Shown in pieces: positions 22,314 through 39,816 of a DNA stretch of 40,877 bases; the stretch's first letter is position 1; the number at the start of each line of letters is the position of its first letter. Source of the stretch: Candidatus Rokuibacteriota bacterium (GTDB lineage: Bacteria > Methylomirabilota > Methylomirabilia > Rokubacteriales > CSP1-6); contig JAUSJX010000078.1 of the NCBI GenBank assembly GCA_030647435.1, positions 1-40,877 of the forward strand. The letters run 5' to 3'. The notes beneath the pieces are model-generated. The model saw nothing but the letters and a program-made list of their open reading frames with translations. It was not told the origin of the DNA and did no database searches. The translations under genes were made by a program, and so were the position numbers.

Positions 22314-22802
22314 TCAAGGCCGCGGCCCGGCGCCGGCGAGGGCGCGCGCGGCTTCGGCGATGGCCTCGACGATGAAGTGATACCCGGTGCAGCGGCAGAG
22401 GTGGCCCGCCAGCATCTCCCTGATCTCACCGTCCGTCGGCGCGGGATGCTCCTTCAGGAACGCGCAGGCGCTCATGATGATGCCCGGCGTGCAGTAGCCG
22501 CACTGGAGCCCGTGCTTGGCCGCGAAGGCCTCCTGGATGGGATGAAGCGCTTCGCCGGGCGGCGCGACTCCCTCGATGGTCGTCACCTCGTGGCCGTCGG
22601 CCTGCGCCGCCAGCATGAGGCAGGCGCGCACGGGTAGGCCGTCAAAGAGCACGGTGCAGGCGCCGCAGACGCCGGGCTCACAGCCGACGTGAGTGCCAGT
22701 CAGGTCGAGATTTTCACGTAAGAGGTCGGCAAGGGTCGAGCGCACGTCCACGGCTTGCTCGCAGTCCGTGCCGTTCACCTTCACGCGGACGGCCCGCTTC
22801 AT
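22314..22802 (-). CDS. Molybdenum hydroxylase 2Fe-2S subunit (CoxS-like), cluster 2
   Basis: A 162-residue electron-transfer subunit with both [2Fe-2S] sites complete: C41, C46, C49 and C61 ([10 protein letters not shown]), then C101, C104, C136 and C138 (CGYC and CRC). It is only moderately similar to the cluster 1 protein, so the two sets are separate enzymes and not a recent duplication. The ATG overlaps the TGA of the FAD-subunit gene. The gene order large-FAD-2Fe-2S differs from cluster 1. Confidence 0.94.
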
Positions 22803-23668
22803 CGCGACTTCCCACAGCGCGAAAGCGCCGCCACGAGCACGCGCTCGGCGAGAGTGGCGGCGACCTTCTTCCGGTAGTCCGCTGAGGCATGCAGGTCGCC
22901 GTCAGGCGAGAGCGCCGCCGCGGCGGCTTTCGCGGCCTCGACGACGCGGGCGGGCGTCGGCTCCCGGCCCATGAGGGCGGCCTCTCCCGGCGCGCCCCTG
23001 ACCGGTGTCCCGCCCACGCCGAAGAATCCCAGCCGCGCGTGCGACACGGCCCCGGCGCTATCCAGGGCCAGCACCGCCGCGCAGCCGACCAGCGCGAAGT
23101 CGCCGTGCCGCCGCGCCACCTCGGCAAAGCCCCAGCCGGCGCCCTCGGGAGGCAGCTGGAAGCGCGCGGAAGTCGCCAGCTCGTCGGATTCGAGCGAGGT
23201 GGTCAGCGGGGCCAAGTAGAGCTTGTCGGCCGGGATCACGCGCTCGCCGCCCTTGCGGCGCACGAGGACGGAGCCGTCGAGGCAGAGGAGCAACGCGGGG
23301 AGTTCGGAAGCGGGGTCAGCGTGGACGAGGCTCCCCACGACGGTGCCGCGGTTCCTGATGGGCGCGTGAGCGACCCAGCCGAGCGCCTCCGAGAGGAGCG
23401 GCGAGCCCGTCCGCGCCCAGCGCTCGAGATCGCGCTGGCGGGCAAGCGCGCCGACGGTCAGGACTCCTCCAGACTCGGCGAGGCCTTCGAGGTCGTCGCA
23501 GCGGTTGATGTCCACGAGCGCCGACGGGCGGGCCAGGCGCAGGGCAAGCATGGGCATGAGGCTCTGGCCGCCGGCCAGGATCTTGGCTTCGTCACCGTAG
23601 CGCCTGAGCGCCTCGACGGCGTCGGCCGCGCTCGACGCGGCAACGTACTCGAAGGCCGGGGGCTTCAT
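22799..23668 (-). CDS. Molybdenum hydroxylase FAD-binding subunit (CoxM-like), cluster 2
   Basis: A 289-residue FAD subunit. The first FAD loop is ILAGGQSLMPMLALRLARP near residue 30, and the second is NRGTVVGSLVHADPASELP near residue 106. The start KPPAFEYVAASSAADAVEAL is typical. The ATG overlaps the TGA of the large-subunit gene and its own stop overlaps the 2Fe-2S start, so the three subunits are translationally coupled. Confidence 0.93.
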   Translation of the reverse strand: MKPPAFEYVAASSAADAVEALRRYGDEAKILAGGQSLMPMLALRLARPSALVDINRCDDLEGLAESGGVLTVGALARQRDLERWARTGSPLLSEALGWVAHAPIRNRGTVVGSLVHADPASELPALLLCLDGSVLVRRKGGERVIPADKLYLAPLTTSLESDELATSARFQLPPEGAGWGFAEVARRHGDFALVGCAAVLALDSAGAVSHARLGFFGVGGTPVRGAPGEAALMGREPTPARVVEAAKAAAAALSPDGDLHASADYRKKVAATLAERVLVAALSRCGKSR

Positions 23669-26010
23669 TTCCCCGCCGCCGACCCGAGGAGGTCCAAGAC
23701 CACGGAAGGCCCGAGGGGAGTCCGCGTAACGCGCACGCCGAAGGGGGCGAGTGCGTCCTCGACGGCGTTGGCGATGGCGGCGGGCGGCGAGATCGCGCCG
23801 CCCTCGCCGACCCCTTTCATACCAAGGGTGTTTCTCGGCGACGGGTACTCGAGGTGGACGGTCTCGATCGGCGGCACTTCCATGGCCGTGGGCACGAGAT
23901 AGTCCATGAAGGTGCCGGTCAGGAGCTGCGCCTGCTCGTCGTAGACCATCTCCTCGAGGAGCGCGCCGCCGACTCCCTGGGCGACTCCGCCGTGAACCTG
24001 CCCTTCCACGATCACGGGATTGATGACCTTGCCGCAGTCGTGGGCGACGAGATAGCGCAAGAGCCTCACGGCGCCTGTGCCGACATCCACTTCCACGTAC
24101 GCGACGTGGACGGCGCTCGCGTAGGTCACGGTCGGCTGGTGCTGGTACACCGTCGCCTCGAAATCAGGCGAGACGATGCCCGGCTTGGCGAAGGTCGGGA
24201 TCGCCGCCTGGATCACGCGGCTCACGGGCAGCGAGGAGGTAGGCGCTCCGCGCACCGAGACCACGCCGTCGGCGATCTCGATGTCGGCCGGCGCGGCCTC
24301 GAGCAGCGCGGCGGCGGCCTCGACGATCTTGTCGCGCACCTTGCCGGCGGCGACGTGGATGGAGCTGCCGGCGTTCACCGCGCTCCGCGAGGCGAAGGTG
24401 CCGACGCCGAAGGGGATGGCCGCGGTGTCCCCGCCGACGATCGTCACCCAGTCGAACGGGATGCCGAGCGCGTCGGCGGCGATCTGGGCGAACGATGTCT
24501 CGTGCCCCTGCCCCTGGCTGCACGCGCCGGTGGAGACGACGGCGTGCCCCGAGGCGTCGAGCCTCACCGTCGCGCCCTCGTACGGCCCGATCGCCGTCCC
24601 CTCGACGTAGCCCGAGATGCCGATGCCGCGGTGGACACCTTGGGCGCGGAGTGAAGCCTGCTCCTGCCTCAGCGCGTCGTAGCCGACGGCGGAGAGCGCG
24701 GCCTCGAGCCCCGCCTTGAAGTCGCCGCTGTCATAGACCAGCGGGTTGCCGTCGCGGTACGGGATGCCAAGCTCGTAGGGCATGTCGGCCTGGGTAAGGT
24801 AGTTCTTCCGGCGCAGGTCGGCGGGATCCATGCGCAGCTCGCGAGCCAGGCAGTCCACGACCCTGTCCATGGCGAAGACGGTCTCCGGGCGCCCCGCGCC
24901 GCGGTACGGCGCGTTCGGCGTCTTGTTGGTCACGACGCCACGGCACTCGACGTGGAGACTCGGAACGCGATGCGGTCCGAGCAGATGCGCCACGGTGTTG
25001 TAGGGCAGCACGATGCCCCAGGAGTTGTAGGCGCCGAGGTCGAGCCAGATCCTGTCGCGCACGCCGAGCATGGTGCCGTCACGCCGCGCGGCGATCTCAA
25101 TGTCGTGCATCTGGTGGCGCGCGTGCCCGGCCGCCATCATGTGCTCGCGGCGGTCCTCGGTCCACTTGACCGGCCGGCGCGCGGCGATGGCGGCGGCGGG
25201 GATCAGCAGGTCTTCGGGGTAGCCGGTCGCCTTGGTGCCGAAGCCGCCCCCGACGTCGGGGGCGATGACGCGGATCTTGTGGGGCGGCAGACCGAGCGCC
25301 GCGACGAGCCCCTGCTGGACGAAGTGGACGACCTGGGTCGAGTTCCACGTCGTGAGTGAGCCGTCGCGGGCGTCCCACTGGGCGACCACGCCTCGCGTCT
25401 CGATGGGCATGCCCACGTAGCGCTGGATCTCGAAGCGCTCGCGGACTGTGACATCAGCCTGGGCGAACGCCGCGGCCGGATCACCGAAACCGGTCTCGAA
25501 GAAGACGGCGACGTTGTCGCCCCACTCCGGATGGAGGACCTGCGCGCCCGGCTCGGCGCCAGCGATCATGTCGGCGACGACGGGCAGCGGCTCGTACTCG
25601 ACCTCGACCAGCTCGCAGCCGTCCTCGGCAAGCGCGCGACTGCCGGCCAAGACCATCGCCACGATCTCACCGACGAAGCGGACGCGGTCCCGCACCATGG
25701 CGAGCTGGCCCACCTGCTTCATCGTGACGTCCACCCGCGCGCCGAGCCCCGGCGGGATGGCGCCGAAGAGCGGCAGGGGCTTCATCCAGCGCTCGAGGTC
25801 GGCGAAGGCGAAGACGTGGGTGACGCCTGCCAGTCGGCGGGCGGCCTCCGTCTTCACCGAGAGGACCTTGGCGTGGCCGTGGGGGCTCCGGACGAAGGCC
25901 GCGTGGAGCAGCCCCGGCAGCTTGATGTCGTCCACGTAGCGGCCTTCGCCGCGGAGATAGCGCTGGTCTTCTTTCCTGCGGACGGAGGCTCCGAAGTATT
26001 TGGCGCCCAT
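23665..26010 (-). CDS. Molybdenum hydroxylase large subunit (form II CoxL-like), cluster 2
   Basis: Catalytic molybdenum-cofactor subunit, 781 residues from the ATG at 26010 (MGAKYFGASVRRKEDQRYLR). A start eight codons further up lies inside the predicted promoter. The cofactor loop is DVGGGFGTK, and the C-terminal motif GMKGVGEGGA carries the catalytic Glu. The active-site loop reads PYRGAGR, matching the AYRGAGR of so-called form II CO dehydrogenases, whose real substrates are mostly unknown. The form I signature AYxCSFR is absent. Together with the FAD and iron-sulfur subunits it makes a complete three-subunit oxidase. Confidence 0.93.
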   Translation of the reverse strand: MGAKYFGASVRRKEDQRYLRGEGRYVDDIKLPGLLHAAFVRSPHGHAKVLSVKTEAARRLAGVTHVFAFADLERWMKPLPLFGAIPPGLGARVDVTMKQVGQLAMVRDRVRFVGEIVAMVLAGSRALAEDGCELVEVEYEPLPVVADMIAGAEPGAQVLHPEWGDNVAVFFETGFGDPAAAFAQADVTVRERFEIQRYVGMPIETRGVVAQWDARDGSLTTWNSTQVVHFVQQGLVAALGLPPHKIRVIAPDVGGGFGTKATGYPEDLLIPAAAIAARRPVKWTEDRREHMMAAGHARHQMHDIEIAARRDGTMLGVRDRIWLDLGAYNSWGIVLPYNTVAHLLGPHRVPSLHVECRGVVTNKTPNAPYRGAGRPETVFAMDRVVDCLARELRMDPADLRRKNYLTQADMPYELGIPYRDGNPLVYDSGDFKAGLEAALSAVGYDALRQEQASLRAQGVHRGIGISGYVEGTAIGPYEGATVRLDASGHAVVSTGACSQGQGHETSFAQIAADALGIPFDWVTIVGGDTAAIPFGVGTFASRSAVNAGSSIHVAAGKVRDKIVEAAAALLEAAPADIEIADGVVSVRGAPTSSLPVSRVIQAAIPTFAKPGIVSPDFEATVYQHQPTVTYASAVHVAYVEVDVGTGAVRLLRYLVAHDCGKVINPVIVEGQVHGGVAQGVGGALLEEMVYDEQAQLLTGTFMDYLVPTAMEVPPIETVHLEYPSPRNTLGMKGVGEGGAISPPAAIANAVEDALAPFGVRVTRTPLGPSVVLDLLGSAAGK

Positions 26011-26021
26011 GGAACCGCTCG

Positions 26022-26050
26022 ACAATACCAACACCCTGCGCTACTGTCCA
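26022..26050 (-). promoter_or_regulatory. Sigma70-like promoter for molybdenum hydroxylase cluster 2
   Basis: On the minus strand, TGGACA (26050-26045, 5 of 6) and TATTGT (26027-26022, 4 of 6) are spaced by exactly 17 bases. The start site would fall near 26015, only about five bases from the ATG at 26010. The mRNA would then be almost leaderless, consistent with no visible ribosome-binding site. The rest of the 239-base gap (26011-26249) holds only the repeat at 26144. Confidence 0.5.
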
Positions 26051-26143
26051 GCGACCGCGGCAGTCGGCTGAATTCCCGCAGGCCGTCGAGAAGGGTCCAG
26101 ATGCGAGGCGGCGAGCGCCGCGGCACCCCGAGGCGTAGTCATC

Positions 26144-26183
26144 ACTCAGCCCTCGCCTCGGGGCTACGCCCCTCAGCTCGAAC
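26144..26183. repeat. Two-copy hairpin repeat (copy B)
   Basis: A 40-base partner of the segment at 180-219. The first 17 bases are identical (ACTCAGCCCTCGCCTCG), and the hairpin is GGGGC-TAC-GCCCC. It lies in the gap between the Met/His-rich gene and the large-subunit gene. A pairing-preserving change between copies suggests the fold matters. Confidence 0.7.
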
Positions 26184-26249
26184 GGCCACGTACGTTGAGG
26201 GGTGCCGCGAGCTCGCCAACGAAGCAGATGGGCTCTTATCGGCGGCCTG

Positions 26250-26924
26250 CTAGTGCTTGTGCGACGCCGGCATCTCTCCCTTGGCCATGGCGAGGTGGTG
26301 CGGGCCGTGGTGCCCGCCCTGGACGAGCAGGCCCGCGAAGCCGAGGCCGCGGATCCGGGCCACCGTCTTGGCGTCGCTTGGATCACGGACGACCACGATC
26401 AGCCGGACGCCGTCGGGGATGGGCTCGGCCTTGGCCGACCACGCGGGCATGAGGTCGAGCTCAGCCGAATGCGGGATGACCATGTCGCGAATCGAGCGCG
26501 CCGTCCTCCCCTCGCCCGTGACATTCATCGCGAGCCCGCCCGGCACCTGGGTCGCCTTGACCGATGCGCGCAGCACCACCTCGTTCATGTCGATCAGGTG
26601 CTGGCGCAGGCGCTCCATGTCCACCTTGGACCAGTCGGTGGCGGGATCGGCCTCGAGGATCCGCACGACCTCGGCCATCGCGCCGAAAGCGTCCTGCCCC
26701 GGCATGCTCTGCCCGCCGCCTGCCGGGTGATGCTGCTGGTGCATGCCATGCGGCATGGCGCCGTGTGGCATGGCGCCCTGTGGCATTTGGCCGTGGGGCA
26801 TCTGGCCGGACGGCATCTGGCCACCGGGGGGGGTCGCCGGCGGCCCCTGGGCCAAGACGCTGCCGACGACGAGGGCGGCCCCGAGCGCCGCAGATCCGAG
26901 AGCGATCACGAGGGATCTTTCCAT
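26250..26924 (-). CDS. Secreted Met/His-rich protein, possible copper or metal binder
   Basis: A 224-residue protein of no family I recognise. Residues 1-26 form a signal peptide (LVIALGSAALGAALVVGS, then VLAQ). Residues 35-59 are five tandem pentapeptides of the form G-[QA]-M-P-[SHQ], followed by GMHQQHH. A globular part (residues 80-200) contains LEADPATDWSKVDMERLRQH and RLIVVVRDPSDAKTVARIRG. The C-terminus is again metal-ligand-rich (GGHHGPHHLAMAKGEMP, then SHKH). Clustered Met and His in an exported protein suggests binding of Cu(I)/Ag(I) or another soft metal (inference). A Crp-type regulator gene lies immediately upstream, with a Crp-like site between them. GGAGGAAGCC precedes the ATG. 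Confidence 0.85.
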   Translation of the reverse strand: MERSLVIALGSAALGAALVVGSVLAQGPPATPPGGQMPSGQMPHGQMPQGAMPHGAMPHGMHQQHHPAGGGQSMPGQDAFGAMAEVVRILEADPATDWSKVDMERLRQHLIDMNEVVLRASVKATQVPGGLAMNVTGEGRTARSIRDMVIPHSAELDLMPAWSAKAEPIPDGVRLIVVVRDPSDAKTVARIRGLGFAGLLVQGGHHGPHHLAMAKGEMPASHKH

Positions 26925-26957
26925 GGCTTCCTCCTGTCGGGTCGAGTCATCAAAGCC

Positions 26958-26963
26958 AGTATG
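26958..26963 (-). promoter_or_regulatory. Candidate -10 element of the Met/His-rich protein gene
   Basis: CATACT (4 of 6 to TATAAT) on the minus strand. The predicted transcription start is 26951, about 27 bases before the ATG at 26924. The matching -35 position (CAGACT) is poor, as expected for a promoter that needs an activator. The nearby palindrome is centred at -41.5. Confidence 0.4.
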
Positions 26964-26984
26964 CCGGCAGGGGCGCGCGAAGTC

Positions 26985-27000
26985 TGTGACCTAGGTCACG
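26985..27000. promoter_or_regulatory. Crp-family operator, TGTGA-N6-TCACG
   Basis: TGTGACCTAGGTCACG matches the Crp consensus TGTGA-N6-TCACA at 9 of 10 defined bases, and its inner 14 bases are a perfect palindrome. It overlaps the last codons and stop of the Crp/Fnr-type gene and is centred at 26992.5. That is 41.5 bases before the predicted start of the Met/His-rich gene, the classic class II activator position. Confidence 0.65.
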
Positions 27001-27685
27001 CGGGAGCGCCGCCCCGCGCCGCCTCGGCGAGGCGCCCGGGGTCGCGGATCACTATCCCTGAGCGGCTGCGCTTGATCGCGCCGGCGCGCTCGAGCTGGGC
27101 GAGGGCACGTGAGACGAGCTCTCGCACAGTGCCGAGCCGCGCGGACAGCTGTTCCTGCGTGAGTCTGAGATCGACGATGGTCCCCGGCGACACCGGCACG
27201 CCCGACGCGGCGGCGCTCGCCTCGAGGTGGCGCGCCAGGCGCTCGGTGACCTGGCGGAAGGACAGGTCCTCGACGAGCTCGGCAAAACGCCGCACCCGTC
27301 TCGCCATGGCTTCGAGCATGGACAGCGCGACGGCCGGATGGCGCCGGCAGAGGTCGAGCACGGCCTGCCGGGGAACGAGCACGAGCCGCGTGGGCTCGAC
27401 GGCAACGGCCGAGGCGATATAGCCCTGGCCGTCGAAGAGGGGCGCCTCACCGAGCGTGGCGCCCGCGCCCTCGGCGTGGAGCACCTGCTCCCGGCCGCGC
27501 GGCGAGACCTGGCGCATCTCCACCGCGCCCTCGGCGACGACAAGGAGCCCGCGGCACGCATCCCCCGCTTCGAAAGCCCGCTCGCCCTGCCTGAGAGCGC
27601 GCTGGCGGCAGCGCTGAGCGAGCCGCGCGAGCTCAGCCGCCGGGACGGAGCGAAAGTAAGCAACCCGGCGCAGCGCCGCCAGCAC
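26996..27685 (-). CDS. Crp/Fnr family transcriptional regulator
   Basis: A 229-residue regulator. A cyclic-nucleotide-binding-like sensor domain (residues 10-125) is followed by the dimer helix (ARRVRRFAELVED) and a winged helix-turn-helix. The recognition helix reads R188-E-L-V-S-R193, the same Arg-Glu-x3-Arg arrangement that in E. coli Crp reads TGTGA. The cAMP pocket (GE then Arg-Ser) is not kept: LGEAPLFDGQGYIAS lacks the Arg-Ser pair, so the effector is probably not cAMP. No Fnr-like N-terminal Cys cluster is seen. I chose the GTG at 27685 because GGGAGGGG sits five bases before it; the frame is open further upstream. It lies 26 bases after the peptide-type permease gene. Confidence 0.9.
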   Translation of the reverse strand: MLAALRRVAYFRSVPAAELARLAQRCRQRALRQGERAFEAGDACRGLLVVAEGAVEMRQVSPRGREQVLHAEGAGATLGEAPLFDGQGYIASAVAVEPTRLVLVPRQAVLDLCRRHPAVALSMLEAMARRVRRFAELVEDLSFRQVTERLARHLEASAAASGVPVSPGTIVDLRLTQEQLSARLGTVRELVSRALAQLERAGAIKRSRSGIVIRDPGRLAEAARGGAPA

Positions 27686-27711
27686 CGAGTCCCCTCCCGG
27701 CCTTCCCAAGC

Positions 27712-28563
27712 TCAAACCCCCGCCGTGCGGGCGCGCGGATCGAGCATCTCGTTGAGCGCCTCGCCCGCAAGGTTGAACGACAGCACCGTGAAGAAGATCG
27801 CCGCGCCCGGAAACAACGGCATCCACCAGGCCTGCTGGAGGAAATTCTGCGCCTGGTTGAGCATGCCGCCCCAGGAGAGCACGTGCGGGTCACTGAGCCC
27901 GAGAAAGCGCAGCGAGGCCTCGGCCAGGATGGCGGCCGGGATCTGGAGCGACCCCGCTACCACGATGGGCGGCAGCGCGTTTGGGAGGATCTGGCGGCCG
28001 ATGATACGCGCGTCCGAGGCCCCGAGGCCGCGCGCCGCCACGACGAACTCGCGGTCCCCCAGCGTCAGGAACTGCGCGCGCGTGAGCCTCGCGGCCGTCG
28101 GCCAGCCGACCAGCGCCAGCACGATGACGACTAGGCGCAGGTCGGCGCCGAAGATCGCCGCCACGACCAGCACGATGAGGAACTGCGGCACCACGAGCAC
28201 CCACTCTGTCACGCGCATCAGCACCTCGTCGAGACGTCCGCGCCAGTAGCCCGCCGCGGCGCCCACGGTGACGCCGATCAGCACGGCGCCTCCCGCGGCG
28301 GCGAGCCCGACGAGAAGCGAGACGCGCGCGCCATAGAGCACGCCCGAGAGGAGGTCGCGGCCGAGGTCGTCGGTGCCGAGCCAGTGCCCCCGCCCCGGCG
28401 GCATCAGGGCGCCGGCGCTCAGCGCGAAGGGATCGGCGGGAGCGACCCACGGCCCGATGACCGCGATGCACATGAAGAGCCCGGCGCCGACGAGCCCCGC
28501 GAGGCCGAGGGGGCGGCCGCGCAACGTCCGGAGAAGGTCGCCGAGCGTGCCCCGCGCCGCCAC
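27712..28563 (-). CDS. Peptide-type ABC transporter permease (DppC/OppC-like)
   Basis: A 283-residue inner-membrane permease. It has an N-terminal helix LGLAGLVGAGLFMCIAVIG, the DppC landmark HWLGTDDLGRDLLSGVLYGA near residue 65, and a coupling loop REFVVAARGLGASDARIIGR, then LPNALPPIVV. The start is a GTG two bases after the DppB-like stop. The cluster has no DppD/DppF ATPase genes, so ATPases must be supplied from elsewhere. The associated enzymes point to an anionic amino-acid conjugate and not a peptide (inference). Confidence 0.92.
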   Translation of the reverse strand: MAARGTLGDLLRTLRGRPLGLAGLVGAGLFMCIAVIGPWVAPADPFALSAGALMPPGRGHWLGTDDLGRDLLSGVLYGARVSLLVGLAAAGGAVLIGVTVGAAAGYWRGRLDEVLMRVTEWVLVVPQFLIVLVVAAIFGADLRLVVIVLALVGWPTAARLTRAQFLTLGDREFVVAARGLGASDARIIGRQILPNALPPIVVAGSLQIPAAILAEASLRFLGLSDPHVLSWGGMLNQAQNFLQQAWWMPLFPGAAIFFTVLSFNLAGEALNEMLDPRARTAGV

Positions 28564-28565
28564 GG

Positions 28566-29537
28566 TTAGATTCGCTCCAGCCTGATGCGCGGATCGATCA
28601 CGGCATAGGCCAGGTCCGCGAGCAGGTTGCCCACGACCACGCAGACCGACACGACGAGGAGCCCGCCCAGCATCACCGGGTAGTCTCGGTGAAGGATCGA
28701 GTCGAAGATGAGGCGCCCGAGCCCCGGCCAGGCGAAGACCGTCTCCGTGAGCACCGCGCCCGCCATGAGGTGCCCCACGTTGAGCCCGATCATCGTGACG
28801 ACCGGCACCAGCGCGTTCCGGAGCGCGTGTTTGTAGATGACCACGCGCTCGGAAAGCCCCTTGGCCCGAGCGGTGCGGAGATAGTCCTGGGCCCCGACCT
28901 CGACCAGGCTCGCGCGCATGAGCCGGACGTTGAGCGCGAGATAGCGTGTCGCCAGCGTGAGCGCCGGCAGCGCCAGGTGGTGGAGCACGTCGAGGGCGCG
29001 GCCGGCGGGGCCCACTCCGAAGAGCACCCCGCGCATGCCCTGGGTCGGGAAGAGATCGAGCTTGAGCGCGAGCCCCATGAGGAGGAGCTGACCGAGCCAG
29101 AAGACCGGCAGCGAGTAGCCCACGAGGCCGACGACCATGAGCGCGTGGTCGGCCGTGCTGCCCGGCCGCCGGCCGCACGCGACGCCGAGGCCGATGCCGG
29201 CCACGGTCGAGATCAGGAGTGCTGCGGTCATGAGGAGGAGCGTGGCCCCGAGCCGGCCCGCGATCAGGTCGAGCACAGGCTCGTTGTAGAAGAAGGAGTA
29301 GCCGAGGTTGCCGCGCAGCACCTGCCCGGCATAGCGGGCGAATTGGACCCAGCGCGGCTGGTCGAGACCGAAGCGCTCGCGGACCTGCTTGACGTACTCG
29401 GGAGGTGCGGGGTAGTCGCCGACGAGGACCTGCACAGGATCGCCCGGCGCGAGCTGGATGATGGCGAAGCCCAGCACCAGCATGCCGAGGAGGAGCGGGC
29501 CGAGGCTCACGAGCCGCCGGCCGATGAACGGGAGCAC
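28566..29537 (-). CDS. Peptide-type ABC transporter permease (DppB/OppB-like)
   Basis: A 323-residue inner-membrane permease. It starts at a GTG (VLPFIGRRLVSLGPLLLGM) right after the MmgE/PrpD gene stop. The DppB family marks are IIQLAPGDPVQVLVGD near residue 31, RFGLDQP near 60, NLGYSFFYNEPVLDLI near 85, and the coupling loop DYLRTARAKGLSERVVIYKH near 212. It forms the channel with the DppC-like partner, and the binding protein is encoded two genes upstream. Confidence 0.92.
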   Translation of the reverse strand: MLPFIGRRLVSLGPLLLGMLVLGFAIIQLAPGDPVQVLVGDYPAPPEYVKQVRERFGLDQPRWVQFARYAGQVLRGNLGYSFFYNEPVLDLIAGRLGATLLLMTAALLISTVAGIGLGVACGRRPGSTADHALMVVGLVGYSLPVFWLGQLLLMGLALKLDLFPTQGMRGVLFGVGPAGRALDVLHHLALPALTLATRYLALNVRLMRASLVEVGAQDYLRTARAKGLSERVVIYKHALRNALVPVVTMIGLNVGHLMAGAVLTETVFAWPGLGRLIFDSILHRDYPVMLGGLLVVSVCVVVGNLLADLAYAVIDPRIRLERI

Positions 29538-29539
29538 GG

Positions 29540-30904
29540 CTAGCCGCGGAGCAGCGCCACGAGCTCCGAGAGGGCTCCCGGCGACTCGATCCTGTCCACG
29601 AGGTCCGCGGCCGCCTGGGTACGAGAGCCCAAGACGGCGCCGGCGAGCGCGAGGAATTTCTCGCGGAGTTCGGCGTCGGTGAGCGGAGCGTCCCAGTGGC
29701 CGCGCGGGATCTCGACTCGGGAAGACAAGCGGCGGCCGTCCAGGGTCTCGACCTCGACTGTTTGACGCTCGCCGTGCGCAGCCGGGTCCACCTCGAGGTC
29801 GATGCGGGTCATCAGCGAGCGGGCGGCGTGGTCCCGGAGGGCCTCGGGCGTGAACTCGTCGAGGGTGAGACGGCCGCGGAGGATGATCCAGGCGAGCGCG
29901 TAGGCCACGCTCATCTGGGCGTCGAGCACGGTGTCCACGCGCTTCGTGCCGATCATCCGACGGCTCATCTCGGAGAGGACGACCCGCACGCGGCGAATGT
30001 TCCCGGCGGTGAGCGCATGATCGGCCCGGAGCTTGAGCATGGAATCGGCGGCGCTGTTGATGCCCCAGCAGACCGGATAGGGCTTGATCCCTTTCTTCAG
30101 AATGCGGAAGCCTTCCCCCAGGTCCTTGAGCGCCGCCTGCGCATCGGCCTGTCCCGGCACATACGTCTCGAAGAGCCCACCCCAGGCGGCGTCGAGAACC
30201 TCGCGCGGGCCCGTGACACCGCGGCGCGCGAGCACCGCCGCCGTCAGTCCCGTCTCGGCTGATCTGCCGGGATGCACGCGCTTGCTCATGGCGCCGTCCG
30301 CCATGAAGGCCCACGTGCCGCCGACATAGGAGCCCGCGAGGCCGAGGGCATGCGCCGTGCCTGCGGCATCGAGTCCCATCACGCGCGCGGCAGCGGCGGC
30401 GGCGCCGAGCGCGCCGTAGACTCCGGTGGTATGCCAGCCATGGAGCGTCATGGTGTCGTAGCTCGCGGCATCCGTAAGGCGCGACGCGATCTCGTGGCCG
30501 GCGACCAAGCCGAGCAGCACGGCTTTCCCGTCGGCGCCCGTCAGCTCAGCGGCGCCCATGGCCGCCGACACCTGGCAGGCGCCCGCGTGTCCGCCGCCGC
30601 CGATATCGTCGAGCTCGCGGAGGTGGGCGTGGGTGCCGTTCAGAAGCGCCGCGGCCTGCGGCGCCGCGCAGCCCGGCATACCCCACACCGTGCAGGGACC
30701 AGTGCCGCCGAGGTCGTCACGGACCTGGCGGAGCAACACCGCTTCGGGAGTGGTCGACCCCTGGAGCGCGCAGCCGAGCGTATCGAGCAGGCAGCGGCGC
30801 GCCATCCTGACCACGTCCGCCGGCAGGCGCTCGAATGCGAGCGCGGCGACCCAGCGAGCCAGCGATTCCGAGACCGTGGGCAACGTCGGGCTACTTCCCG
30901 TCAC
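29540..30904 (-). CDS. MmgE/PrpD family enzyme (iminodisuccinate epimerase/2-methylcitrate dehydratase family)
   Basis: A 454-residue member of a family that includes 2-methylcitrate dehydratase, cis-aconitate decarboxylase and iminodisuccinate epimerase. It has RCLLDTLGCALQGS near residue 37, HLRELDD (94-100), H106, WHTTG (157-161), the basic motif K208-R-V-H-P-G-R, and KKGIKPYPVC (270-279). These are the family's active-site segments. Its 3' end is three bases from the DppB-like gene, and its start lies inside the end of the binding-protein gene, so it is embedded in the transporter operon. With the divergent lyase upstream, an epimerase or dehydratase acting on an imported amino- or hydroxy-polycarboxylate is most likely. 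Confidence 0.9.
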   Translation of the reverse strand: MTGSSPTLPTVSESLARWVAALAFERLPADVVRMARRCLLDTLGCALQGSTTPEAVLLRQVRDDLGGTGPCTVWGMPGCAAPQAAALLNGTHAHLRELDDIGGGGHAGACQVSAAMGAAELTGADGKAVLLGLVAGHEIASRLTDAASYDTMTLHGWHTTGVYGALGAAAAAARVMGLDAAGTAHALGLAGSYVGGTWAFMADGAMSKRVHPGRSAETGLTAAVLARRGVTGPREVLDAAWGGLFETYVPGQADAQAALKDLGEGFRILKKGIKPYPVCWGINSAADSMLKLRADHALTAGNIRRVRVVLSEMSRRMIGTKRVDTVLDAQMSVAYALAWIILRGRLTLDEFTPEALRDHAARSLMTRIDLEVDPAAHGERQTVEVETLDGRRLSSRVEIPRGHWDAPLTDAELREKFLALAGAVLGSRTQAAADLVDRIESPGALSELVALLRG

Positions 30905-32459
30905 TCACCCACACCTGGTCCCAGCGCTCGTGGGCCGAATGGCTCTTGAAGATGCTCTGGACCCGCCCCCGCGCGACGTTCGTATCGCCGTACTCGAAGA
31001 GCGGAATGACGGGCAGGTCGCGCATGAGAATCTCCTGCGCCGCAAAGTAGTATTTCGCGCGCTCCGCCTGGGTCGTCGCGGAGGCTGCCTGGCGGAAGAT
31101 CTCGTCCAGCTTAGGATTGCAGTACCGCGAGACATTGGCGAACGGGGCCGGCCTGATATTGTCGCAGACATACATGCGCGCGACGCCGATCCCCGGGTCG
31201 CCGTACGTCGTGTAGTTGTGGATGTGGATGTCGAAGTCGTAGTTCTTATAAACCCTGTCGAGCATCAGGGAGCGCTCCATGGGCATTTGCTTAACGTTGA
31301 TGCCGACGGAGCGGAGCTGCTGGGCAACCACCTCGGAGGCCTTGTTCGCGGCCGAGTTGGCGGGGTCGTAGACGAAGCGGAGCGTCAAGCGCTCACCGTT
31401 CGCCCCCTTGGGATAGCCCGCCTCGTCGAGGATCGCGGCGGCCTTGGCCGGGTCATAGGCGTAGATCGGCACCTTGGGGTTGTGCGCCCAGGCGAGGGTT
31501 GACGGGATCGGGCTGATCGCCGGGCGGCCCTGGCCGAAGTAGCCCTTCTCCACGAGAAACTTCTTGTCGATCGCATGCGCGATGGCCTGGCGCACGCGGA
31601 GGTCCTCGAGCGGCTTCGACTCCTTTTGGTTGAAGAAGAGTGTGACCACTTCGGGGAAGAGCATGTACTCCTTCACGACCACGCCAGGCATCGCTTTCAA
31701 CCGCCCCGCCTGCTCCACCGGAAGCCAGAAGGAGTAGAGCACGTCCACCTCGCCCTTCTCGAAGGCGAGCACACGGGAGGCCGGGTTCGGCATCACGCGC
31801 AGCACGACGCGATCGAGATAGGGCTGGCCCTTCTTGAAGTAGTCGGGGTTGCGCTCGAGGACGTAGTGGCTGCCCTTGACCGCCTCCGCGATCTTGAACG
31901 GCCCGGTGCCGACGGGCTTGCGGTTGAATTCCGCCGTCGTGAAGTCCTGGCCCGCGAGGAGATGCTTGGGCACGATGGCCCCGGTATTCAGCGCGGTCAT
32001 GAAGACGAAGGGGCCGAAGGGCGCCTTGAGCTTGACCACCGCCGTGTACGGGTCGGGGGTCTCGACTGCCGCGACCAGCGAATAGGACAGGCGGCCGACC
32101 GGATGGTATTTCGGCAGCACCTCGGTATAGGTGAACTTGACGTCCTCCGACGTAAAAGGCTTGCCGTCGTGCCACTTGACGTCGCGACGGAGCTTGAAGG
32201 TATACGTGAGCCCGTCGACGCTGACCGTCCACGACTCGGCGAGGTCCGGATGGTTCCGGTACTCGTTGTCGAGATGCGTCAGCCCATTGAAGAGCTTGCC
32301 CATGAGCGCCCACGCCTGGGTGTCCGTCGTGGTGCCCGGGTTCATCGTCGGCGGGTCCGCGCCGATAGCCTGCACGACCGTGCCGCCGCGGACCGGCGTC
32401 TGCGCCTGCGCGGCGCCAGGCAGCGCTGCCAGCAGCAACGACAAGACGAGCTTGAGCAT
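30891..32459 (-). CDS. Family 5 extracellular solute-binding protein (DppA/OppA-like)
   Basis: A 522-residue periplasmic binding protein. The signal peptide is LKLVLSLLLAALPGAAQAQ, and the mature start TPVRGGTVVQAIGADPPTMN is classic for the family. LAESWTVSVDGLTYTFKLR and VKWHDGKPFTSEDVKFTY follow, and then GTGPFKIAEAVKG. I chose the ATG at 32459, which gives the clean signal peptide and sits five bases from the lyase gene stop. It would deliver substrate to the DppB/DppC-like channel encoded downstream. The MmgE/PrpD start overlaps its 3' end by 14 bases. Confidence 0.92.
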   Translation of the reverse strand: MLKLVLSLLLAALPGAAQAQTPVRGGTVVQAIGADPPTMNPGTTTDTQAWALMGKLFNGLTHLDNEYRNHPDLAESWTVSVDGLTYTFKLRRDVKWHDGKPFTSEDVKFTYTEVLPKYHPVGRLSYSLVAAVETPDPYTAVVKLKAPFGPFVFMTALNTGAIVPKHLLAGQDFTTAEFNRKPVGTGPFKIAEAVKGSHYVLERNPDYFKKGQPYLDRVVLRVMPNPASRVLAFEKGEVDVLYSFWLPVEQAGRLKAMPGVVVKEYMLFPEVVTLFFNQKESKPLEDLRVRQAIAHAIDKKFLVEKGYFGQGRPAISPIPSTLAWAHNPKVPIYAYDPAKAAAILDEAGYPKGANGERLTLRFVYDPANSAANKASEVVAQQLRSVGINVKQMPMERSLMLDRVYKNYDFDIHIHNYTTYGDPGIGVARMYVCDNIRPAPFANVSRYCNPKLDEIFRQAASATTQAERAKYYFAAQEILMRDLPVIPLFEYGDTNVARGRVQSIFKSHSAHERWDQVWVSDGK

Positions 32460-32463
32460 GGAC

Positions 32464-33978
32464 TTAGCCTCCGATGATCGCGTCAATGGCGGCCTCGAGC
32501 GTGCGCGCGGCCGCGGCCAGCCGCGCATTGATAGAGGCCACGGTCGCCTCGTCGGCCTTGAGGCCGTCCTCGAAGAAGGCCGCCTGGCGCAGCGATTCGG
32601 CGGGCGCGGGCCCGCCCCGCATCGTGCGCGCGGCGACGAAGCGGCCCGGGTCGAGGGCCGTCTTGATCTGCGCGGCGTCGAGGCCTGCCGGCTTGCCGTG
32701 GTAGGCGACGGCCGCCTCGTCCAGGAGGGCGGGCGTCACGCCGTCGGGCCCGACTCCCCTGTCTTCGCAGAGACGGACGAGGATGCCGACGATCTGGTGC
32801 GCCGTGCGCCAGGGCAGGTCCCGCTCGCGGCAGAGCGCGCCGGCGAGATCGGTCGCCGTCGCCCAGTGGCGCCATGCCTGCTCGCGCATGTGCTCAGTAC
32901 GGATCCCGAGCGCCGGCAGCAGCTCGCAGAACCAGTCGAGGTCCCTCGCGCAATTGTCGGAGACGCGCCAGAGCGCCTCGAGGGCGTAGTAGCGCTCCGT
33001 GATGGGCAGGCCGGTCGGCCCCTTGAGCGCGTGATAGGCGGTGACGACGCAGCCTATCGCCTCGGCAGAGGCGCCCTTGACCTCGGCGGGGCCGATGACG
33101 TTTTTCTTCTGCGTCATGATGCTGGACGTGTTGCAGAAGCGGTCGGGAATGTCCACGAAGCCGAACTCGCTCGTGCTCCAGAGAATCAGGTCGTCGGCCC
33201 ACTTCGCCAGTGTGTGATAGAGGAGGGCCACGGCCATCGGCACGTCCAGGCTGTCGTCCGCGTTCAGCTCCAGGATCGCGTCGGCCATGTTCTCGTGGAT
33301 CGAGTCGAAGCCCAGAAGCTCGGCCGTCCGCTCGCGATTGAGCGGGAAGTCCGAGCCGACCATGATGGCGGCGCCGGCCGGGCTCGTGTTGACGCGCCCG
33401 TACACGCCGTGGAGGCGCTCGAAGTCGCGCCCGAGGTTGGCCGCCCAGGACAAGAGGAGATGCGCGAGCGTCATGGGCTGGGCGTGCTGGCCGAAGCTGT
33501 ACCCGGGGAGGATCGTGTCCGTGTGCTGCCGAGCGAGCCCGATCAGCACGCGGCGCAGCGTGTTGACGCCTTCGAGGATCCGCAGCACCTTCTCCCGCTG
33601 GAGGGTGTTGATGCCGACCGAGGAGAGATCGCCCGAGCTGCGCCCGAGGTGGAGCCGTCCGCCGATCTCCTCGCCGAGCGCGCGGATCAGGTACTGCTCG
33701 CCCGAGTGAAGCCCGCCGCCCGACTTCGTCCGCGCCTCCTCGACACCGTCCTTTTCCATGCGGCGGAGCGCTTCGAGGATGGCCTTGCCGTGCTCGCGCC
33801 GGAGCAGGCCCTCCTCGGTCAGCATGACGGCCTGCGCCTTGTCAAAGGCGTGGAGCGCGTGGAACATGAGGCGCGAGCGGCCGGCGGCCAGCTTGCCGAG
33901 CTGCGGGAGCATCTCTTCGCGGAGCCTGATGCCGCCGGCGCGGAACCCGCGGTACTCGGGTGAGGGCTGCTTGAGCAT
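32464..33978 (-). CDS. Divergent argininosuccinate-lyase-like C-N lyase
   Basis: A 504-residue member of the fumarase/aspartase superfamily, closest in pattern to argininosuccinate lyase. The catalytic loop reads S285-S-I-M-T-Q-K-K-N293-V, keeping the Ser, Lys and Asn but losing both Pro residues of MPxKKNP. The substrate loop GRSRNDQ becomes G112-R-S-S-G-D117, so the Arg and Asn that hold argininosuccinate are gone. The TH pair of the catalytic PGYTHLQ becomes P158-G-Y-S-F-G-Q, so its His is missing. It is thus probably not ArgH. A beta-elimination releasing fumarate from another N-substituted aspartate is a fair guess. It heads an operon with a peptide-type importer and an MmgE/PrpD enzyme. 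AAGGAGGG lies ten bases before the ATG. Confidence 0.85.
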   Translation of the reverse strand: MLKQPSPEYRGFRAGGIRLREEMLPQLGKLAAGRSRLMFHALHAFDKAQAVMLTEEGLLRREHGKAILEALRRMEKDGVEEARTKSGGGLHSGEQYLIRALGEEIGGRLHLGRSSGDLSSVGINTLQREKVLRILEGVNTLRRVLIGLARQHTDTILPGYSFGQHAQPMTLAHLLLSWAANLGRDFERLHGVYGRVNTSPAGAAIMVGSDFPLNRERTAELLGFDSIHENMADAILELNADDSLDVPMAVALLYHTLAKWADDLILWSTSEFGFVDIPDRFCNTSSIMTQKKNVIGPAEVKGASAEAIGCVVTAYHALKGPTGLPITERYYALEALWRVSDNCARDLDWFCELLPALGIRTEHMREQAWRHWATATDLAGALCRERDLPWRTAHQIVGILVRLCEDRGVGPDGVTPALLDEAAVAYHGKPAGLDAAQIKTALDPGRFVAARTMRGGPAPAESLRQAAFFEDGLKADEATVASINARLAAAARTLEAAIDAIIGG

Positions 33979-34056: not shown

Positions 34057-34425
34057 ATGATCGAGCGGCTATTCGAGCTGGTGAACGCCGACGCGGCGCT
34101 CGTGCGCCGCGGCCGGTTCCTCACGACGGACTTCCTGGTCGAGGTAGGGGACGAGCCCTTCCACATCTCCGTGCAGGACGGCCGCATCGCCTCGGTGACG
34201 CGCGGCCCGGCGGCCGCGCGCCCGTGGCGCTTCGCCATACGCGCGAGCGCGGAGGCGTGGCGAGAGTTCTGGCAGCCCGTGCCTCGTCCGGGGTACCACG
34301 ACCTCTTCGCCCTGACGCGCTTCGGCCACGCGCGCATCGAGGGCGACCTCCTGCCCCTCATGGCCAACCTCCGCTACGTGAAGGAAGTCCTCGAGACGCC
34401 GCGACGCCTCGCGAGGAGCGCCTGA
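34057..34425 (+). CDS. Small SCP2-like sterol-carrier-domain protein (tentative)
   Basis: A 122-residue cytoplasmic protein with no signal peptide. The middle, FLVEVGDEPFHISVQDGRI, followed by FAIRASAEAWREFWQPVP and LRYVKEVLET, resembles the SCP2/lipid-binding fold in its strand and helix pattern. I cannot name a close family with certainty. GAGAGGAG precedes the ATG by about seven bases. The stop is separated by one base from the start of an alpha/beta hydrolase, so the two are translated together, and the protein may bind or present a hydrophobic substrate to that hydrolase (inference). Confidence 0.75.
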   Translation: MIERLFELVNADAALVRRGRFLTTDFLVEVGDEPFHISVQDGRIASVTRGPAAARPWRFAIRASAEAWREFWQPVPRPGYHDLFALTRFGHARIEGDLLPLMANLRYVKEVLETPRRLARSA

Positions 34426-37012: not shown

Positions 37013-37048
37013 CCCTATGACGTCGCCCGACCCTATGACGTCGCCAGA
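37013..37048. repeat. Tandem 18-base duplication of the start-codon region
   Basis: CCCTATGACGTCGCCCGA (37013-37030) is followed directly by CCCTATGACGTCGCCAGA (37031-37048), 17 of 18 identical. It gives the PLP enzyme two possible ATG starts (37017 and 37035) in the same frame, with the peptide MTSP repeated. Confidence 0.85.
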
Positions 37049-38084
37049 GTGGTCCCGCTACGCGCGCGCCTTGCCCTCGATCGCGCACGCCGTGGGGCGC
37101 ACGCCTCTCGTCCGGCTGAACCGCATCACCCTGGACGTCAAGCCCGCGATCTACGTCAAGGTCGAGTGGTACGGCGCGACGGGCAGCCTCAAGGACCGGA
37201 TCTATCTCCACATGTTCGAGCGGGCCGAGGCGCGAGGAGATCTCCGATCCGGCATGAGCGTGCTCGAGTGCTCGACGGGGAACGCGGGCATCGCCTGCTC
37301 CTGGGTCGCCGCCGTCAAGGGCTACGCCTGCACCATCGTGATGCCCGAGGGCATGAGCGAAGAGCGCAAGAAGATCATGCGCGCCTACGGCGCCGAGCTG
37401 ATCTTCACCAAGGGCGGCGAGAGCGACGTGGACCTCTCCCTCCGGCGCCTCCAGGAGATCCGCGCCGCAGACCCCGCGCGCTACTGGGTGCCGGGCCAGT
37501 TCGACAACGCCGACAACGTCGAAGCGCACATCCTCACGACAGGGCCGGAGATCCGCGAGCAGATGGACGGCCGGATCGGCGCCTTCGTGGATTCGCAGGG
37601 CTCCGGCGGGCTCCTCACGGGCGTCGGCCGATATCTGCGCCGGCATGACCCGGCGGTGCGTCTGTACGCAGTCGAGCCGGCCGAGTGCGCGCTGCTCTCG
37701 ACGCGCGCGTGGGGGCACCACGGCATCGAAGGAATCGGCGACGGCTTCGTGCCGAAGAACCTCGACGTCTCGCTCCTGACCGGCGTCATCACCACCACGA
37801 CCGACGAGAGCGTCGCCATCGCCCGCCGCCTCGCCAGGGAAGAAGGCATCTTCTGCGGCATCTCGAGCGGCTGCAACGTGGCCGCAGCGCTTAAGCTCGC
37901 GCGCAAGCACTCAGAGCTTCCGTCCATCGTGACCATCATCAACGACACCGGCCAACGCTACTTCACGACGCCGCTCTGCGGCGAGGACAAACACGTGGAC
38001 ATCCCCGAGCGGGAGCACCCGCTCGACCCGTACACGGTGGAGCAGCTCGACCGCTACCAGAAGACCTGGGAGATCATCGGGTGA
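37017..38084 (+). CDS. PLP-dependent cysteine synthase/cystathionine beta-synthase-like enzyme
   Basis: A 355-residue fold-type II PLP enzyme. The cofactor Lys is K59 in GATGSLKDR, the substrate loop is S86-T-G-N-A-G91, and the PLP-phosphate loop is GSGGLLTG near residue 193. CGISSGCNVAAAL follows in the C-terminal part. It is longer than CysK, lacks the CBS-domain tail, and replaces the usual NPGGSxKDR start of the Lys loop with WYGATG. It may act on a substrate other than O-acetylserine. The first six codons are a tandem duplication, so the true start could be ATG 37035. Its TGA overlaps the GTG start of the CoA-transferase A gene, coupling it to that pathway. Confidence 0.9.
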   Translation: MTSPDPMTSPEWSRYARALPSIAHAVGRTPLVRLNRITLDVKPAIYVKVEWYGATGSLKDRIYLHMFERAEARGDLRSGMSVLECSTGNAGIACSWVAAVKGYACTIVMPEGMSEERKKIMRAYGAELIFTKGGESDVDLSLRRLQEIRAADPARYWVPGQFDNADNVEAHILTTGPEIREQMDGRIGAFVDSQGSGGLLTGVGRYLRRHDPAVRLYAVEPAECALLSTRAWGHHGIEGIGDGFVPKNLDVSLLTGVITTTTDESVAIARRLAREEGIFCGISSGCNVAAALKLARKHSELPSIVTIINDTGQRYFTTPLCGEDKHVDIPEREHPLDPYTVEQLDRYQKTWEIIG

Positions 38085-39043
38085 CGATCTCCCGGCGCGA
38101 GTACGACTTCCAGGCGGCCCGCCTGCGCCTTGAAGCGAAGCCCAAGTCCGCCGGGGAGAAGCTGACCACCCTCGACGAGGCCGTCGCGCGGGTGAAGGAC
38201 GGCGACTCCCTGGCGTTCGGCGGCTGTCTCTTCTCCCGCACGCCGCTCGCGCTCATCCGTGCGCTCCTTCGCCGGCGCCCCACGGGGCTCACCATCTCGC
38301 GCAACCTCATGTGCTACGAGGGCGAGTGGTGCATTGTCGCGGGCGCCGTGGACAAGGTCGTGACGTCGTGGATGGGCATCGGGCTGCCGTGGGGGCTCTC
38401 GAAGATCGTCCGCGAGTACGTCGAGTCGGGGCGCGTGCCGATGGAAGAGTGGAGCCACCTGGCGCTGGGGCTCCGCTTCCGCGCGGCGGCGATGGGGGTG
38501 CCCTTCCTCCCCTCGCTCACGATGCTCGGCTCCGGGCTCGTGGACGTAGGCGGCTCCAAGACCATCGACTGCCCGTACACAGGGCAGAAGCTCCTCGCGG
38601 TCCCGGCCCTGTTCCCGGATGTCGCGATGCTCCACGTGCACCGGGCCGACCGCTTCGGCAACTGCCAGATCGACGGCTATCCGCACATGGACGCCGACAT
38701 CGCGAAAGCCGCGGCAACAGTGCTCGTCACGGCCGAGGAGATCGTGCCCGAGGAAGAGATCCGCCTTCACCCGGACCGGACCGTCATCCCCGGCTTCATC
38801 GTGGACGCGCTCGTCCACGTGCCGTACGGGTCCTACCCGCATGAGTGCTACGGCCTCTACGACGCCGAGCCCGAGCACTTCAGCGTTTACGTGGACGGCA
38901 TCAACCAGCGCGGCGCGGCGGGGGTCCAGGACTACCTCGAGCGCTACGTCTACCGGCCCCGGACCCACGCCGACTACCTCGCGCTCTTCGCCGAGGCCGC
39001 GCTGGCGGACGCGAGCCGGCGCGGCAGGGAGCTGGTGACGTGA
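38081..39043 (+). CDS. CoA-transferase subunit A (GctA/IpdA-like)
   Basis: A 320-residue family I CoA-transferase alpha subunit resembling glutaconate CoA-transferase A. It has VKDGDSLAFGGCLFSRTP near residue 38, where the GG motif binds CoA, then MLGSGLVDVGGSKTIDCPYT near 148 and LHVHRADRFGNCQIDG near 190. It acts with subunit B to move CoA between carboxylic acids. The GTG start overlaps the stop of the PLP enzyme, and its own TGA overlaps the GTG of subunit B. IpdA-type steroid-ring hydrolases are homologous and cannot be excluded, though subunit B keeps a likely catalytic Glu. Confidence 0.9.
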   Translation: MTISRREYDFQAARLRLEAKPKSAGEKLTTLDEAVARVKDGDSLAFGGCLFSRTPLALIRALLRRRPTGLTISRNLMCYEGEWCIVAGAVDKVVTSWMGIGLPWGLSKIVREYVESGRVPMEEWSHLALGLRFRAAAMGVPFLPSLTMLGSGLVDVGGSKTIDCPYTGQKLLAVPALFPDVAMLHVHRADRFGNCQIDGYPHMDADIAKAAATVLVTAEEIVPEEEIRLHPDRTVIPGFIVDALVHVPYGSYPHECYGLYDAEPEHFSVYVDGINQRGAAGVQDYLERYVYRPRTHADYLALFAEAALADASRRGRELVT

Positions 39044-39816
39044 GCAGCGCCCTGAACGGCGTCACGGCCAACGAGCTGCTCGCGGTGATGGGCGCCCGCG
39101 AGCTCAAGGACAACACCACGGTCTTCGCCGGGGTCGGCGCGCCCATGATGGCCTCGGGGCTCGCCCAGCGCATGCATGCTCCTGGGCTGACCATGGTCAT
39201 CGAGGGCGGCATCGTCGGGCCCAAGTGGAAGCCGGGCTCTCTGCCCATCTCGACCAACGAGATGCGCGCGGCCTACCGCGCCCAGATGCTGCCGGGCATC
39301 ACCGATGCTTTCCTGCTGGCCCAGCGCGGCTTCCTCGACGTGGGCTTCATCGGCGGCGCCCAGATCGACCGCTACGGCAACTTGAACACCAGCGCCATCG
39401 GCGGAAGCTACGACCGCCCGAAGGTGCGCCTCCCCGGCACCGGCGGCGCCAACGACATCATCTCGCTCTGCCGCGCGGTCATCATCCTGACCGTCCACGA
39501 GAAGCGCCGCTTCTCGGAAACCGTGGACTTCATCACGAGCCCGGGCTGGCTCACCGGCGGCGACAGCCGTCGGGCGAGCGGGCTCCTCTTCGGCGGCGTC
39601 TCGCGCGTGGTGACAACGCTCGGCCTCTTCGGCTTCGAGCCGGAGAGCCGCCGGATGAGGCTCGAGGCGCTGCACCCCGGCGTCAGCGTGGACGACGTCA
39701 AGGCCGCCACCGGCTTCGAGGTGCTGGTCGCCGATCAGCTCACCACGACCAAGCCGCCGAGCGACGAAGAGTTCGGCATCCTCCGCATGCTCGACCCCGC
39801 GCGGCAGTTTCTGTGA
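39040..39816 (+). CDS. CoA-transferase subunit B (GctB-like)
   Basis: A 258-residue family I CoA-transferase beta subunit. The likely catalytic residue is E55 in MVIEGGIVGPKW, the position that forms the CoA thioester in glutaconate CoA-transferase. GFIGGAQIDRYGNLNTSAIG and LPGTGGANDIISLC are the other conserved blocks, and LHPGVSVDDVKAATGFEV lies near the end. The start is a GTG overlapping the subunit A stop. Keeping E55 favours true CoA transfer over the IpdAB-type hydrolase reaction. A hairpin repeat follows five bases after the stop. Confidence 0.9.
   Translation: MSSALNGVTANELLAVMGARELKDNTTVFAGVGAPMMASGLAQRMHAPGLTMVIEGGIVGPKWKPGSLPISTNEMRAAYRAQMLPGITDAFLLAQRGFLDVGFIGGAQIDRYGNLNTSAIGGSYDRPKVRLPGTGGANDIISLCRAVIILTVHEKRRFSETVDFITSPGWLTGGDSRRASGLLFGGVSRVVTTLGLFGFEPESRRMRLEALHPGVSVDDVKAATGFEVLVADQLTTTKPPSDEEFGILRMLDPARQFL

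Follow-up and report, generated by a model that had tools for sequence, protein, structure and literature searches.

The question raised by this locus is which reaction is served by a protein that resembles argininosuccinate lyase (ASL, ArgH), carries altered active-site motifs and has no arginine-pathway gene among the genes examined around it, as a sequence-only reading of the same DNA had correctly stated. The window (the whole stretch of DNA analysed, 40,877 nucleotides from a Candidatus Rokuibacteriota genome of 5.79 Mb that is 98% complete) contains the following genes.

32464..33978 (-): lyase of 504 aa resembling ArgH, from the inner clade of the GRSSGD family (Pfam Lyase_1 4.5e-34, ASL_C2 4.6e-13)
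30891..32462 (-): family-5 (Dpp/Nik/Opp-type) solute-binding protein, directly downstream of the lyase, start inferred at the MLKL codon (SBP_bac_5 1.5e-95)
29540..30904 (-): MmgE/PrpD-family protein, 454 aa, conserved partner (partner clade 99/97)
28566..29540 (-): Dpp-type permease with approximate start, encoded in the C-terminal part of ORF 28566-30314 (BPD_transp_1 8.1e-40, residues 373-578)
27712..28566 (-): another Dpp-type permease with approximate start, encoded in the C-terminal part of ORF 27712-29178 (BPD_transp_1 2.1e-27, OppC_N)
26996..27826 (-): Crp/Fnr-type regulator closing the same gene run, start uncertain (cNMP_binding, HTH_Crp_2)
37017..39816 (+): cysteine-synthase-like PLP enzyme of fold type II, followed by two subunits of a CoA-transferase
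to 40872: LLM oxidoreductase, after the CoA-transferase pair

The lyase gene and arginine synthesis

The reading frame at 32464-33978 (504 aa) had been recognised earlier without its strand, which is the minus strand; the same interval read on the plus strand does not give the protein. A long antisense reading frame (32131-33963, plus strand) is read as an artefact of GC-rich coding sequence. Both Pfam domains score above their cut-offs, placing the protein in the ASL branch of the aspartase/fumarase superfamily. Its AlphaFold model (pLDDT 88.6) retrieved EDDS lyase as the top Foldseek match (TM 0.85), followed by ASL structures (TM normalised by target 0.85-0.92), and phmmer against the PDB returned matches in the same order, with EDDS lyase first (1.6e-57) and trans-aconitate decarboxylase as a distant match. 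The gene is under strong purifying selection, with a dN/dS of about 0.1 (0.026/0.251) relative to a 96%-identical ortholog (L033).

Against TIGR00838, the ArgH equivalog model, the lyase scores 280.5 bits for a curated cut-off of 279.5, so an automatic pipeline would probably label it argH. The inner-clade homolog of L043, 66% identical to it, stays under this cut-off with 265.6 bits. Four Lyase_1 proteins are encoded in the genome, namely the window lyase, one each on contigs C65 and C98, and a canonical ArgH on contig C39 with the motifs GRSRNDQ, PGYTHLQ and SSIMPQKKNP. The presence of this separate ArgH, for which the sequence-only reading had recommended a search, together with argG on contig C22, indicates that the window lyase is not the arginine-pathway enzyme. 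Judging from its sequence, it is most likely a paralog of ASL that departed from arginine synthesis. It represents an uncharacterised variant inside a known superfamily, and its relatives appear to be misnamed in public records. Because pipelines would file such genes under argH, as the records of relatives already do, arginine pathways could be mis-scored in genomes where the real ArgH has been lost.

The family and its active site

A scan of about 85,000 genomes returned 35 loci, 30 of which hold members of one family (45-96% identity) from Rokubacteria, Beta-, Alpha- and Deltaproteobacteria, Tectomicrobia, Chloroflexi and Actinobacteria. In a maximum-likelihood tree this family forms a 100/100 clade apart from the ArgH clade (100/100), with EDDS lyase outside it on a long branch. 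The inner clade comprises 18 sequences, the window lyase included, and the outer clade consists of Bradyrhizobium, Bosea and relatives; when 249 genomes from the Bradyrhizobium order were searched with a mixed alignment, most of the matches were ArgH. The window lyase and five Rokubacteria orthologs align without internal gaps. Residue positions were mapped on the numbering of duck delta-2 crystallin and EDDS lyase, and the alignment gives the following features.

33628..33645 (-): codons 112-117, GRSSGD for GRSRND (R115 to S, N116 to G)
33487..33507 (-): codons 158-164, PGYSFGQ for PGYTHLQ (catalytic His to Phe162)
33097..33126 (-): codons 285-294, flexible loop SSIMTQKKNV; base Ser285, Lys291 and Asn293 kept, Pro294 to Val
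33085..33087 (-): codon 298, Ala for the Glu that pairs with the catalytic His
32992..33006 (-): codons 325-329, P-I-T-E-R; Tyr323 of the ASL arginine pocket to Pro, and the family-wide E/D328-R329

The three motif changes noted from the sequence alone (GRSSGD at 112-117, PGYSFGQ at 158-164 and SSIMTQKKNV at 285-294) are real and their positions exact. The accompanying residue list also holds, with Arg, Asn and the catalytic His gone and Ser285, Lys291 and Asn293 of the flexible loop kept in every family member of the alignment, but it missed that the Glu partner is changed and the Tyr/Gln/Lys pocket lost. The motif changes are common to orthologs in Rokubacteria, Betaproteobacteria, Alphaproteobacteria and others, and are not sequencing noise.

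The pair Arg115-Asn116, present in 7/7 ArgH sequences and in EDDS lyase, is Ser/Thr-Gly across all clades of the family (R115 to S/T with N116 to G in 18/18 inner-clade sequences), with a single exception in L053 (Ser-Pro); at the Thr161 position the family has Ser or Thr. Position 162 is Phe in all 18 inner sequences, His in the seven outer ones and His or Gln in between, and the position of ASL Glu296 (window Ala298) is Ala in 18/18 inner, Glu in 7/7 outer and Glu or Gln in between. The combination at 162/296 over all 46 sequences is His-Glu in 22, Phe-Ala in 18, Gln-Gln and His-Gln in two each, Gln-Glu in EDDS lyase only and Leu-Thr in L009 only. From these pair counts, the His and Glu positions appear to tend to change together; the 18 Phe-Ala sequences probably represent one event. 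The remodelling of the active site thus looks stepwise in the sequences, the outer members keeping the His-Glu pair that the inner members lost, and the family allows the loss of a textbook catalytic pair to be traced step by step (His/Glu kept, partly changed, fully lost). At window position 289, Pro is changed to Met in the middle and inner clades (Met in 17 of the 18 inner sequences, the Thr of the window being a private variant), and at position 294 Val replaces Pro throughout the inner clade (18/18) and in L053. Tyr323, Gln328 and Lys331 of ASL correspond to Pro, Tyr and Leu in the window and are replaced in nearly all family members. A Glu/Asp-Arg pair at window 328-329 is nearly invariant across the family, and the proton-abstracting Ser (285 in the window), Lys291 and Asn293 show no variation across phyla.

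Two inner-clade copies, belonging to different sub-branches, are found in each of four betaproteobacterial MAGs (L037 and L050, L039 and L044, L040 and L041, L042 and L046), which suggests duplication and specialisation, and also more than one substrate. Another paralog from the Rokubacteria class (L009:1501-2763) has GRSRGD and PGYTLLQ, apparently through a separate loss of Asn, His (to Leu) and Glu (to Thr).

Gene neighbourhood and the MmgE/PrpD partner

Importers recur near the lyase and are of Dpp type (the window, L034, L036, L043, L054 and L065), of TctC type (binding proteins in betaproteobacteria) or of amino-acid or polyamine type. The best NCBIfam match of the solute-binding protein of the window is nikA (202 bits, under the cut-off), and the protein resembles NikA and, more weakly, the staphylopine-binding CntA.

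An MmgE/PrpD homolog lies near the lyase in 14 of the 30 fetched loci and in the window. Based on the density in the window genome (nine MmgE copies in 5.79 Mb), the 350 kb of flanks would be expected to contain about 0.5 copies, and still only about 2 if the density were four times as high. The partner clade (99/97) comprises nine loci (the window, L034, L036, L043, L054, L056, L058, L060 and the Chelatococcus locus L072), which usually also have an ABC importer. The eight other MmgE copies of the window genome fall outside this clade, and this is also the case for the betaproteobacterial MmgE neighbours, which may be incidental. Iminodisuccinate (IDS) epimerase uses His99 and Tyr145 as bases (PMC7347537); the partner MmgE keeps this His, which is an active-site residue of CadA as well, Tyr145 is not conserved, and the protein lies apart from IDS epimerase (2HP0) in the tree. 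An assignment as IDS epimerase is thus not supported, the Tyr145 base being missing and the clade another one.

The partner is not obligatory, since L033 retains the lyase without the block that contains it. There, window positions 26055-32464 (6.4 kb, with the solute-binding protein, MmgE/PrpD, permeases and regulator) are replaced by about 1.3 kb (L033:4270-5535) between colinear flanks, and the L033 genome, which is 78% complete, gave no MmgE match of 1e-60 or better and no close solute-binding protein. Orthologs in three other genomes (G063, G065 and G077) have no MmgE partner beside the lyase in the sequence examined. A 122-aa protein with no Pfam match (window 34057-34425), divergent from the lyase, is kept beside it in L033.

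On the other side of the lyase, the PLP enzyme, CoA-transferase pair and LLM oxidoreductase accompany it in the window, L034 and the betaproteobacterial L050, and it is uncertain whether the module at 37017..39816 belongs to the same pathway. A diaminopropionate route (toxin A or aspergillomarasmine breakdown) was rejected, the PLP gene (37017-38084) being cysteine-synthase-like and not a diaminopropionate ammonia-lyase. In addition, the window contains a complete three-gene Mo-hydroxylase of the CoxL/quinoline-oxidoreductase type (22314-26034), with homologs near the lyase in L033, L040, L044, L045 and L051. In L044 and L045 the Mo-hydroxylase genes lie upstream of the lyase, and genes for an enoyl-CoA hydratase and an acyl-CoA synthetase lie downstream.

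The outer loci contain, in varying combinations, an isoaspartyl-dipeptidase-like protein (273 bits for a cut-off of 331), a polyamine-type ABC transporter, an amino-acid binding protein and a formimidoylglutamase/agmatinase-like protein. The isoaspartyl-dipeptidase-like and ureohydrolase-like genes gave a lead towards breakdown of cyanophycin dipeptides; it stays a lead because neither gene turned up among the inner loci and that route offers no role for the lyase step. The family may not be uniform: outer members (His-Glu pair, hydrolase neighbours) and inner members (no pair, often CoA-linked neighbours) may act on different compounds. The member from Variovorax SRS16, annotated argH, lies with genes for an agmatinase, an amino-acid ABC transporter, an Asp/Glu racemase and an MmgE/PrpD protein. 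Cultured bacteria that carry the lyase include Bradyrhizobium, Variovorax SRS16 and Ancylobacter mangrovi.

Two plasmids carry related arrangements. In L070:2403-12483 (plasmid NZ_CP036360.1 of Agrobacterium sp. 33MFTa1.1), the gene of another ArgH-like protein, with GRSRND kept and a loop ending SSIMPQKKNM, shares its locus with genes for MmgE/PrpD, an asparaginase, an amino-acid ABC transporter, a SIS-domain protein and a PfkB kinase. This set resembles one for the use of fructosyl-asparagine; fructosyl-aspartate would be an N-substituted aspartate. In L072:7986-13533 (Chelatococcus sp. CO-6 plasmid), the gene of an ArgH-clade protein without the final loop Pro (SSIMPQKKNA) adjoins an amino-acid ABC transporter and an MmgE/PrpD of the partner clade.

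Possible reactions and known systems

Since the altered residues hold across phyla and the gene lies among genes for transport and catabolism, it is natural to suppose a different substrate, and the new substrate suggested by the sequence-only reading is supported to the extent that sequences and neighbours allow. With middling confidence, we propose that the window lyase is a catabolic, cytoplasmic EDDS-type lyase that would release fumarate and an amine from an imported N-substituted aspartate. This fits best because the branch and fold are the same, the catalytic core is kept, the specificity residues are changed, importers and MmgE/PrpD lie beside the gene, and an arginine context is lacking. 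Family membership, the altered residues, the presence of a separate ArgH and the linkage of the genes were established computationally; which bond is broken, in which direction and in what substrate, and what MmgE and the transporter do, we infer from them. The succinyl-bearing compound (an N-substituted aspartate) would enter through the Dpp-type ABC transporter, and the lyase, probably a tetramer as in the superfamily, would use Ser285 of the flexible loop to take the C-beta proton, with Lys291 and Asn293 stabilising the aci-carboxylate. The bond between substituent and succinyl carbon would then break as in EDDS lyase, giving fumarate and the amine, and the MmgE/PrpD partner, if it resembles IDS epimerase in function, would act as an epimerase or isomerase on the substrate or product.

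A shifted acid/base scheme had also been suggested. Loss of the His alone has a precedent, as EDDS lyase lacks a catalytic His and has Gln159 instead (PMC12363623), but the joint loss of the His at position 162 and its Glu partner strengthens the suggestion. As the inner clade lacks the pair, its leaving group would exit without that acid, either already protonated or aided by water or by the new Glu328-Arg329 pair. Several observations speak against an EDDS-type reaction: five of the six residues that lie near the substrate in EDDS lyase differ, the equivalent of Asn116, usually a carboxylate ligand, is Gly, and the context in L044 and L045 (Mo-hydroxylase, enoyl-CoA hydratase, acyl-CoA synthetase) has no obvious call for fumarate release. 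Also against the proposal are the missing Tyr145 base and separate grouping of the partner MmgE, the absence of its gene block in L033 and the position of the betaproteobacterial MmgE neighbours outside the partner clade.

Somewhat unlikely, in our view, is another chemistry within the superfamily, in which the enzyme would eliminate a group linked through O or S, add to an unsaturated acid (like the coenzyme M enzymes XcbC/XcbD) or decarboxylate its substrate (like trans-aconitate decarboxylase, the distant PDB match). A changed leaving group would fit the loss of both the His-Glu pair and Asn116, the CoA-transferase, CoA-ligase and enoyl-CoA hydratase neighbours of inner loci suggest a product other than fumarate, and the second-best NCBIfam match of the lyase, over its whole length, is to XcbC (NF052535), from the bacterial route to coenzyme M. 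The score of that match, however, is 207 bits (251 for L058, the Bradyrhizobium homolog) and falls far short of the cut-off, 575, the neighbours examined did not include a recognisable coenzyme M gene set, and the ancestral chemistry was probably C-N elimination because the outer members keep the full ASL catalytic set. A broader reading of the inner clade, which we consider speculative and unlikely, is that it performs an undescribed reaction of the superfamily, with no His-Glu pair or Arg-Asn clamp and a new Glu/Asp328-Arg329 pair, in a cross-phylum catabolic route of lyase and MmgE/PrpD for a compound that has yet to be recognised as a nutrient of bacteria, the outer members being intermediate evolutionary states.

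It is improbable that the enzyme works in biosynthesis, joining an amine and fumarate into an N-substituted aspartate such as a metal chelator whose metal complex the transporter would import. Such reactions are reversible, that of EDDS lyase being used synthetically (PMC12363623, PMC10792612), and the likeness of the solute-binding protein to NikA and CntA would suit a metal complex, but the gene run examined contains no recognisable exporter, siderophore-type synthetase or outer-membrane receptor, and the hydrolases of the outer loci (isoaspartyl-dipeptidase-like, ureohydrolase-like) are typical of breakdown. A second or alternative argininosuccinate lyase for arginine synthesis, suggested by the one-bit excess over the TIGR00838 cut-off and the argH names of public records, is very improbable given the canonical ArgH, the different argininosuccinate-binding motif and pocket, and the lower score of L043. 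Equally remote is a non-catalytic relative like delta-1 crystallin, which the lost His-Glu pair might suggest, as Ser285, Lys291, Asn293 and the flexible loop do not vary between phyla and the gene is placed with catabolic ones.

C-N lyases of the ASL branch are useful for making chiral N-substituted aspartates, and the GRSSGD family offers a different pocket. A literature search on the gene pair (lyase and MmgE/PrpD) or the family returned nothing relevant. Four known systems serve for comparison. The window lyase shares with ArgH the fold, the flexible loop SSxMxQKKN, the catalytic Ser and the overall alignment, whereas GRSRND, PGYTH, the His-Glu pair and the Tyr/Gln/Lys pocket (323/328/331) are all replaced and the clade is another one. 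XcbC is likewise an ASL-branch enzyme with a new reaction. According to PMC7347537, which cites the work on the lyase, iminodisuccinate is processed jointly by a C-N lyase and IDS epimerase, the latter an MmgE/PrpD protein. This route of Agrobacterium BY6 (epimerase PDB 2HP0) places an MmgE/PrpD protein beside a C-N lyase-like protein, the same pairing in kind despite the differences of the window MmgE (Tyr145 base, clade), and by analogy supports the idea of a catabolic lyase without identifying the substrate. Finally, EDDS lyase of Chelativorans sp. BNC1 (PDB 6G3D-6G3I, 6RX8) is the top match in sequence and fold, at 29-30% identity. Six of its residues lie near the substrate (R112, N113, Q159, N288, D290 and Y320; PMC12363623), of which only N288 is kept, the others being S, G, F, I and P in the window lyase, and it retains the Glu partner that is Ala here. 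The two proteins are nevertheless of similar length with an aligned C-terminal region, both lack the ASL His (Gln159 and Phe162, respectively), both start the loop with Thr-Ser-Ser, and the equivalents of Ser280, Lys286 and Asn288 are kept in the window lyase.
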